Position numbers and translations under genes: made by a program
Shown: in pieces, positions 22,593 through 27,674 of the stretch
How positions within the stretch are numbered: position 1 is the first letter of the stretch
Layout: every line of letters starts with the position of its first letter
Source: Brevundimonas sp.
GTDB lineage: Bacteria; Pseudomonadota; Alphaproteobacteria; Caulobacterales; Caulobacteraceae
Assembly: GCF_016742135.1 (NCBI RefSeq)
Contig: NZ_JACVCG010000002.1
Location: 558,001-622,000 of the forward strand
Reading direction: 5' to 3'
Length of the DNA stretch: 64,000 nucleotides
Notes under the pieces: generated by a model
Told to the model about the DNA's origin: nothing
The model's database searches: none
The model's input: only the letters and a program-made list of their open reading frames with translations

Positions 22593-22954
22593 TCAGACCT
22601 TGTTCAGCCCGTCGAAGCGGATCGTCTCGAGAGTCCAGGGCTCGATGTCATCGAGGGTGCGGACGTTGACGGCGATCATGTCGCGACCATCCGGGGACTT
22701 TCCGGCCCCGAAGGGCTCGACGCCGCATACCCGGCAGAACCGGTGGCTGATCACATGCCGGTTGAATAGATATTCGCTCAACCGGTCCTCGCCCCGGATC
22801 AGGCGAAACGCGTCGGGCGTGACGAAACCCAGCATCAGCCCCTTGCGATAGCAGTGGGTGCAGTTGCACTCGATCACGCCCGACAGGTCCATATCGGCTT
22901 CGAAAGCCACCGCCCCGCAGTGGCAGGACCCCTTGTGGGTTGTCGCCTCGCTCA

Positions 22955-22955
<1 letters not shown>
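22593..22955 (-). CDS. GFA/CENP-V-fold zinc protein
   Basis: 120 aa. The pattern of cysteines, [12 protein letters not shown], then [10 protein letters not shown] and [11 protein letters not shown], defines the glutathione-dependent formaldehyde-activating (GFA/CENP-V) family, which binds two zinc ions. Few members have a proven reaction; formaldehyde-glutathione condensation was originally proposed. The ATG overlaps the dnaE stop as TGATG, so it is the downstream gene of the dnaE transcript. No functional link to replication is obvious. Confidence 0.85.
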
Positions 22956-26416
<3,461 letters not shown>

Positions 26417-26526
26417 CGACCGTCTCCCTGGCCCGCAGCCCACACATCCGATGACTATGGAAGGATTCTGGCCTCAAGAACCCCGCCCGTTCCAATCCAT
26501 CCCCAGCCGCGCGACAGGTCGGTGGA

Positions 26527-26616
26527 TCAATAGGCCAGCAGCGCCGCCTGCCAGGCCATCCAGACAAAGCCGCCGCAGGATGCCAGTGACAAAACTTCCC
26601 GAACCCAGCGCGCCAT
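26527..26616 (-). CDS. sidA: SidA-like 29-residue SOS cell-division inhibitor
   Basis: A 29-codon gene. It starts MARWVREVLSLAS, then has a hydrophobic stretch from about residue 10 to the end (CGGFVWMAWQAALLAY), so it should be a single-span inner-membrane peptide. GAGG is placed 7 bases before the ATG. In Caulobacter crescentus SidA is a 29-residue LexA-controlled membrane protein that blocks division through FtsW/FtsN. Length, membrane topology, location next to dnaE and two LexA boxes over the promoter all agree. I infer orthology from these features without having an alignment. It would be missed by length cut-offs in automatic annotation. Confidence 0.8.
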   Translation of the reverse strand: MARWVREVLSLASCGGFVWMAWQAALLAY

Positions 26617-26634
26617 GATCAACCTCGTGATAAT

Positions 26635-26675
26635 GTTCTGCGTCTGTTCTATGTTCTGCTTACGTTCTTTGTCAA
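26635..26675 (-). promoter_or_regulatory. sidA: SOS promoter with two tandem LexA boxes
   Basis: Two perfect alphaproteobacterial LexA sites, GTTC-N7-GTTC, lie at 26635-26649 and 26653-26667, offset by 18 bases. On the minus strand TTGACA (26670-26675) is the -35; the upstream box fills the spacer and the downstream box covers the -10 region (TAGAAC). LexA bound here would block RNA polymerase fully. The ATG of the 29-codon gene is 19 bases from the nearer box. Confidence 0.88.
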
Positions 26676-26700
26676 CCGGATTTGCCCAACCTTTTTCGTG

Positions 26701-26718
26701 CCGCCCGGCTCCGGGCGG
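26701..26718. other. GC-rich hairpin after the short-chain dehydrogenase gene
   Basis: CCGCCCGG and CCGGGCGG form an almost loopless palindrome 24 bases after the stop of the dehydrogenase gene. No T tract follows on the minus strand, so it is not a good intrinsic terminator, though it may slow polymerase before the SOS promoter. Confidence 0.35.
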
Positions 26719-26742
26719 GAGGACGCGGCAGACGAACCGACT

Positions 26743-27600
26743 TCAGCCGATTTTGACGCCGGGCGGCGGCACACTGTCCGCCGGAACGAAGAAGTCGGGC
26801 ATCAGCGGCTTGCTCGGATCGACGCGATAGATGTCGAAGTCCCGCACGCCCTGCTCGTAGAGGAAGCTGTCGTCGATCAGGAAGCGGCCCGTATTCTGGC
26901 GCGCCGGCAGACAGAACAGGGCGTGGGCCGCGTCGGCCAGAATCTCGGGCGTGCGGCAATGGGCCAGGCCCTCCCTGCCCGTCAGGGCAAACTCAATGGC
27001 CGCCGTGGCCACGGCCGTACGCGGCCACAGGGCATTGAAGGCAATGCCGTCGCCCTTGAACTCCTCGGCCATGCCCAGCATCGCGAGGCTCATATTGTAC
27101 TTGGCCATCGAATAGGCGACGTGCGAGCCGAACCAGTGCGGCGACAGGTCCAGCGGCGGCGACAGCGCCAGCACATGCGGATTGGCCGCCTGCTTCAGAT
27201 GCGGAATACAGGCCTTCGACACCAGAAAGGTGCCGCGCCCGTTGACCTGGTGCATCAGGTCGTAGCGCTTCATGTCGGTGGTCAGCGTCCCGGTCAACTG
27301 GATGGCCGAGGCATTGTTCACGCAGATGTCGATGCCGCCGAACCGATCGACCGTGGCCTCGACCGCCGCCATGACAGAGTCCTCGCTCCGCACATCCACC
27401 ACCAGCGGCAGGGCCTTGCCGCCCGCCGCCTCGATCTCCTCGGCAGCGGAATAGATGGTCCCGGGCAGGTGTTTGTGCGCCTCGGTGGTCTTGGCGGCGA
27501 TGACGACATTGGCACCGTCCCGGGCGGCCCGCAGGCCGATGGCAAGACCGATTCCGCGGCTGGCCCCCGTGATGAACAGGGTTTTTCCATTGAGCGACAT
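26743..27600 (-). CDS. Short-chain dehydrogenase/reductase, HSDL2-like
   Basis: 285 aa. Cofactor site TGASRGIGLAIGLR near the N-terminus, NNASAIQ after strand 4, and the catalytic YSMAK near residue 160; a Ser precedes it in LALSPPLDL. The insert AAKTTEAHKHLPGTIYSAAEE is characteristic of the HSDL2-like subgroup, thought to act on fatty acyl or steroid substrates. The ATG at 27600 (MSLNGKTLFITGAS) is preferred to one seven codons upstream. Divergent from the dienoyl-CoA isomerase gene, which fits a role in fatty acid breakdown, but the substrate is unknown. Confidence 0.85.
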   Translation of the reverse strand: MSLNGKTLFITGASRGIGLAIGLRAARDGANVVIAAKTTEAHKHLPGTIYSAAEEIEAAGGKALPLVVDVRSEDSVMAAVEATVDRFGGIDICVNNASAIQLTGTLTTDMKRYDLMHQVNGRGTFLVSKACIPHLKQAANPHVLALSPPLDLSPHWFGSHVAYSMAKYNMSLAMLGMAEEFKGDGIAFNALWPRTAVATAAIEFALTGREGLAHCRTPEILADAAHALFCLPARQNTGRFLIDDSFLYEQGVRDFDIYRVDPSKPLMPDFFVPADSVPPPGVKIG

Positions 27601-27674
27601 CGTCAGGGCCCTCCAGTGCATTTCGATGGAAAACCGATAGCATCGGCTTTACCTCCAATCGCGATGGCACTGAC

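Follow-up and report, generated by a model that had tools for sequence, protein, structure and literature searches.

The short gene directly before dnaE in the window (the whole 64-kb stretch of Brevundimonas DNA analysed here) is very probably sidA. LexA on two tandem operators is predicted to keep it off; after DNA damage it would give an inner-membrane peptide of one helix, predicted to block septation via FtsW/FtsI/FtsN. The initial annotation had proposed a 29-codon SidA-like gene under two tandem LexA boxes just before dnaE. The features of the locus are collected in Table 1.

Table 1. Coordinates, in window positions, of the sidA promoter, sidA and dnaE1.
Feature	Position	Strand	Remarks
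sidA, 29-codon ORF MARWVREVLSLASCGGFVWMAWQAALLAY	26527..26616	(-)	predicted single-pass inner-membrane peptide; NF033228 match
Shine-Dalgarno-like GAGG	26623..26626	(-)	6 nt ahead of the sidA ATG; read from sequence
Proximal LexA box GAAC-N7-GAAC	26635..26649	(-)	predicted; first half-site ends the -10
Predicted -10 TAGAAC	26646..26651	(-)	RpoD TANAWC core
Distal LexA box GAAC-N7-GAAC	26653..26667	(-)	predicted; within the promoter spacer
Predicted -35 TTGACA	26670..26675	(-)	18-bp spacer to the -10; read from sequence
dnaE1, DNA polymerase III alpha	22955..26443	(-)	PRK05673, 1444 bits (cut-off 1002)

The reading frame runs from an ATG at 26616 to a stop at 26527 and has the claimed 29 codons, and the ribosome site described in the initial annotation is the GAGG before this ATG. 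An automated ORF listing takes a TTG two codons earlier as the start and reports 31 aa; the ATG start is common to nearly all homologues read. Against NCBIfam the sole match of the peptide is NF033228 (SidA; E 2.1e-4, 21.2 bits), spanning profile positions 1-27 of 29, and Pfam at E up to 1 gave only a weak match to PsaJ (E 0.11, under its cut-off). The curated cut-off of NF033228 is 35 bits, so naming by cut-off would miss the gene. This cut-off is passed by 42 of 398 Caulobacterales genomes, two of them Brevundimonas, and judged by their sequences these same-genus SidAs (G159, 36.4 bits; G047, 35.5 bits) bridge the cut-off-passing SidAs to that of the window.

The window peptide was aligned with SidA relatives, C. 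crescentus SidA being represented in the comparison by its relatives and by the NCBIfam SidA model. It is 41-59% identical to 11 SidAs of the Caulobacter/Phenylobacterium type, our own label for a sequence group. M1, S13, F17, V18 and W19 are invariant in 19 sequences of the family, and R3, R6, M20 and A25 are nearly so. The proposed SidA-like identity is thereby supported by both the profile match and the alignment. The single membrane-type segment was also borne out, though as a modest one: the peptide has one hydrophobic stretch, with a best 17-residue hydropathy of 1.36 compared to 2.26 in a Caulobacter-type SidA, and a membrane helix is predicted. A SidA search of phage and plasmid records returned no match. 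With high probability the gene is an ortholog of SidA that falls below the standard cut-off, its function being assigned from C. crescentus by homology.

Conservation of the ORF was named beforehand as a point on which the proposal could fail. The peptide was found in 60 of 61 Brevundimonas genomes including that of the window (E at most 4.4e-6), the one genome without it being G025, which is 70% complete; outside Brevundimonas, no peptide match in the same genome sample was better than 0.034. The 69 distinct Brevundimonas-type sidA genes yielded a pN/pS of 0.36, and the shifted-frame controls on the same set 1.19 and 2.05. For 29 Caulobacter/Phenylobacterium-type genes the value was 0.29. The position before dnaE, likewise claimed from the sequence, could be compared across genomes. 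In the window the DNA polymerase III alpha gene follows, its true start likely being the GTG at 26416, about 110 bp past the sidA stop. Across genomes dnaE was found beside sidA in 139 of 140 loci (the miss is L177), including all 60 of L001-L060, and lay downstream on the same strand in 79/79 oriented loci where it was found. The distance from the sidA ATG to the DnaE motif ranged from 138 to 571 nt over these 79 loci. Loci L001-L060 and L121-L200 overlap partly in source genomes, and removal of duplicates reduced the 140 sidA loci to 111 promoters. The dnaE neighbourhood, the LexA-type array and the length of SidA are conserved across Caulobacteraceae.

Other features near the locus were also recorded. 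An SDR oxidoreductase gene at 26743-27621 (NF006133, 442.8 bits) lies on the other side of sidA and is found near it only in the closest relatives of the window (8/140 loci, in two partly overlapping collections). A GFA-domain protein at 22593-22955 (PF04828, 54.1 bits) follows dnaE and shares its last base. Between sidA and dnaE, an inverted GAAC-N7-GTTC at 26478-26492 is not of the direct-repeat LexA form and is probably a chance occurrence.

The window holds just two perfect GTTC-N7-GTTC sites, and both lie before sidA, where the tandem pair had been reported. A single perfect box is expected 1.49 times per window by chance, and single boxes are not beyond chance, whereas the 18-bp tandem of boxes is. 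In coding orientation the array reads GAAC-N7-GAAC-ATA-GAAC-N7-GAAC, and the exact four-half-site pattern, with any three bases between the boxes, has a single occurrence in each of 52 out of 131 Brevundimonas genomes; the reversed pattern occurred in none of the same 131 genomes. When 30 of these 52 places were examined as loci, dnaE was present in 30/30, and an FVW-bearing SidA ORF started within 60 nt of the array in 26, the other four failing this strict test. When up to two of the sixteen positions could mismatch and the gap could be 2-3, the tandem array was detected in 106 of the 111 non-duplicate Caulobacteraceae promoters versus 3 of 2220 shuffles. The double box is the usual design in Caulobacteraceae, a point that extends the initial annotation. 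That it is a local peculiarity of the window was considered and is ruled out by the family-wide array and by its presence in f5 and part of f3, two of the other Caulobacterales families described below.

The overlap of the boxes with the promoter, as first described, is seen in the predicted layout, the distal box lying in the spacer and the proximal box beginning inside the -10. The Caulobacter RpoD -10 consensus is given as GCTANAWC in PMC8144410, and the predicted -10 of the window fits its TANAWC core. A TANAWC hexamer is ended by the third half-site, GAAC, in 69 of 70 Brevundimonas-type arrays, and a TTG -35 lies 17 bp upstream in 61 and 18 bp upstream in five of the 70. The TANAWC core falls on the third half-site in 6/37 Caulobacter/Phenylobacterium-type arrays, 11/15 arrays of f5 and 1/4 of f3; the first of these counts indicates that the -10 overlap is a feature of Brevundimonas rather than family-wide. 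The predicted -10 of this genus incorporates a LexA half-site, and we read the two boxes of the window as one predicted operator of four half-sites, the third of which ends the -10. A scan of 26380-26760 with an E. coli-type promoter model found nothing. Most Caulobacter-type rows have one imperfect half-site per box, and some have a further GAACATCTTGTGAAC upstream of the array. Given these imperfect half-sites, a motif finder could count the Caulobacter-type sidA promoter as single-box.

The same box pattern occurs at 84 places in the genome, against 9 for a reversed control whose base composition match is inexact. Genes beside the boxes were read in 12 stretches hand-picked from the 84 places, some of which gave no nameable gene. 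Boxes precede uvrA, ssb and a polymerase IV-like (Y-family) gene, Ssb scoring above the TIGR00621 cut-off and the UvrA and polymerase fragments under their full-length cut-offs, as well as a YifB/ComM-like gene (over its cut-off) and an ImuA-like gene (under its cut-off). The use of this box in the SOS response of the genome is supported by its position before these other SOS-type genes. A lexA gene of this genome was not among the matches listed. Further perfect boxes (L442, L444) precede a radical-SAM repair gene and coaBC.

The place before dnaE was then read in four other Caulobacterales families, which carry the working labels f2 to f5 and were represented by 26-27 genomes each. The DnaE N-terminus served as an anchor, matches under 44% identity being dropped from the dnaE-anchored sets, and up to 420 nt upstream were searched for ORFs of 25-45 codons starting with ATG and holding a strongly hydrophobic stretch (hydropathy 1.5), a threshold that would miss the SidA of the window itself (1.36). 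Such micro-ORFs were found before dnaE in 23/25 loci of f4, 24/24 of f5, 9/25 of f3 and 0/25 of f2; at this hydropathy none was seen in 2/25, 16/25 and 25/25 loci of f4, f3 and f2, respectively. A perfect LexA box preceded the ORF in 17 loci of f4, 20 of f5, 6-7 of f3 and none of f2. Of the dinucleotide shuffles, 1.3-4.3% contained an ORF and 0/3960 a box together with an ORF, and the reverse-strand control gave an ORF in 0, 1, 4 and 5 loci of f2, f3, f4 and f5 and box plus ORF in none. Chance as the source of the order-wide micro-ORFs is ruled out by the shuffles, by the reverse strand and by their absence from all 25 loci of f2. In f2 (L204-L230) a perfect LexA box precedes dnaE in 1/25 loci and a SidA-like ORF in 0/25. 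The tandem array, scored as 14 or more of 16 matches, accompanies 13/24 ORFs in f5, 4/9 in f3 and 1/23 in f4.

The peptides of these families are linked to SidA stepwise. A profile comparison of f4 with SidA scored 29.7, a value reached by 0/200 block-shuffles (maximum 18.0), and f5 with f4 scored 24.4, again reached by 0/200 (maximum 18.5). The direct comparison of f5 with SidA was not significant, 56/200 block-shuffles scoring as high. Alignment A4 omits five of the 24 f5 ORFs, removed by hand for an unusual length or start codon position, and alignment A3 omits one of the 23 f4 ORFs, a duplicate. Measured on one length class from each of the two families, pN/pS was only 0.65 (f4) and 0.62 (f5), at near-saturated pS. 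An NCBIfam scan of 22 f4 and 19 f5 peptides gave no SidA match. The relation of this wider family to SidA within Caulobacterales is supported by the likeness of the predicted peptides and by their place.

Similar predicted mini-genes reach beyond Caulobacterales, which is a second addition to the initial annotation. A dnaE-anchored sample of the class (37 genomes, 30 loci) gave box plus candidate ORF in three of 29 non-window loci, namely L349, L356 and the weaker L363. L363, of family f9, has a 33-codon hydrophobic ORF 258 nt before the DnaE motif, with a LexA box; it is a possible but weak member, and its genome, G490, is without a match to profile A5. This profile, which holds the L349 and L356 peptides among its rows, was searched against 387 class genomes, and at E up to 1 its matches seem mostly to be noise. 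Sixty-four out-of-order loci were examined, made up of 25 of the 28 in L372-L399 and 39 of a further 40, the four others being within the order. A DnaE N-terminus was present in 15 of these loci and absent from 49. On a rough estimate, about one 3-kb stretch in a thousand would include the start of dnaE by chance, and the 15 loci are thus not luck. In every one of these loci dnaE is preceded by a SidA-like ORF with a perfect LexA box ahead of it, though the ORF of L375 lacks an ATG and its start codon would be GTG or TTG.

The 15 loci fall in seven families: three in f8, five in f14, three in f115 and one each in f158, f70, f23 and f162. Among their genomes, G489 and G495 supplied rows of the profile and four more belong to the same two genera, while the remaining nine come from seven genera absent from the profile. 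Features common to the out-of-order peptides, judged by eye, are a length of about 28-47 residues and an acidic residue ahead of the hydrophobic part; many also have an A-L-x-S/V core followed by W. No SidA match was obtained when 10 of them were scanned against NCBIfam. We lean, by a narrow balance, towards seeing SidA as the conspicuous part of an SOS checkpoint that is ancient in alphaproteobacteria. On this view a one-helix micro-gene under LexA control lies directly before dnaE across much of Caulobacterales and in no fewer than seven further families of the class; it would drift in sequence too fast for annotation and supply the so far missing SOS division inhibitor of each lineage, working on FtsW/FtsI/FtsN. 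Counting against one wide family are the Caulobacterales loci that lack the ORF, the few candidates in the dnaE-anchored class sample, the non-significant match of f5 to SidA, the pN/pS values of f4 and f5, the near absence of the tandem from f4 and the 49 out-of-order profile matches that have no dnaE.

C. crescentus SidA is described in PMC4211646 as a 29-residue inner-membrane product of the SOS response that interacts with FtsW and FtsN and is thought to keep FtsW/FtsI/FtsN inactive; its over-production blocks division, and mutations in ftsW or ftsI suppress this. Its promoter is reported in PMC12700426 to be an early and strong SOS promoter, and deletion of sidA to abolish the filamentation of a lexA mutant. 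By analogy, LexA on the two tandem operators of the window would keep sidA off, and DNA damage would release LexA through RecA and induce sidA early (PMC4211646, PMC12700426). The peptide would insert in the inner membrane as one helix, contact FtsW and FtsN, act on FtsW/FtsI/FtsN and arrest division. The layout of the promoter further suggests two layers of repression: as the -10 includes the third half-site, LexA at the proximal box would keep RNA polymerase away, and LexA at the distal box would form the second layer, so that little of a division-blocking peptide would leak. FtsW is present in this genome (L201), with 248 of 383 aligned residues identical to a Caulobacter-type FtsW. No offset was found that places the suppressor residues reported for FtsW (A31, F145 and A246) on a Caulobacter-type FtsW.

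The short distance from sidA to dnaE, their adjacency in nearly all loci and in distant families, and a scan of 26380-26760 that found no terminator-like site would agree with an array serving dnaE. The two genes would then form one transcript, with the micro-ORF as a leader or coupling peptide setting SOS-time synthesis of DnaE. We consider this unlikely. Over-produced C. crescentus SidA blocks division, as cited above from PMC4211646, the word dnaE is absent from the main text of PMC12700426, supplements aside, and the selection on the peptide measured by pN/pS speaks against a mere leader. The more than fourfold range of distances between the sidA ATG and the DnaE motif argues against translational coupling.

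TisB and DinQ are small SOS peptides with one hydrophobic segment and a LexA-type promoter. The window gene shares this gross design and might encode a membrane-depolarising SOS peptide of their kind instead of a divisome inhibitor, a reading that we regard as improbable in view of the sequence relation and the shared locus with SidA. The ORF is also very short, and single boxes are expected in the window by chance, which leaves some room for a chance ORF under a genuine LexA promoter making a non-coding RNA. The pN/pS of the true frame, against values above 1 in shifted frames, and the presence of the peptide in all but one of the genus genomes make this by far the least credible explanation. 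A predicted SOS-controlled SidA acting on the divisome is preferred.

In the literature, the titles and abstract openings surveyed describe no SidA outside Caulobacter, though the original SidA paper (Modell 2011) may mention homologues. The window gene is a SidA missed by the cut-off of the standard model, and the wider extension matters more. The conserved spot before dnaE provides a concrete list of short, unrecognised ORFs as candidate SOS division inhibitors. The four-half-site operator, with a half-site in the predicted -10 in Brevundimonas, offers a way into the question of why a gene that blocks division would need to be repressed twice when about 97% of Caulobacter SOS promoters are reported to have one box (PMC12700426).

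The window peptide resembles C. crescentus SidA (NF033228) in its 29 aa, in a basic N-terminus followed by one hydrophobic segment and in the FVW core, and the genes have in common a LexA-type promoter and, in Caulobacter-type genomes, the adjoining dnaE. It differs from Caulobacter-type SidA in having CGGFVWMxW where those have SVxGFVWMxC, and from members of the SidA model in scoring under the cut-off. Its four LexA half-sites are all perfect, unlike those of most Caulobacter-type rows. SulA of E. coli is likewise an SOS division inhibitor, but it is a soluble inhibitor of FtsZ and not a membrane peptide. YneA of Bacillus and SosA of Staphylococcus, which are likened here by description and belong to another phylum, are also SOS-induced division inhibitors, and YneA is reported to interact with FtsW (PMC13396833, PMC6851548). 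DidA of C. crescentus is described as a small transmembrane protein that, like SidA, inhibits division through FtsW/I/N (PMC4211646); it differs in that it is SOS-independent, driven by DriD and binds FtsN.
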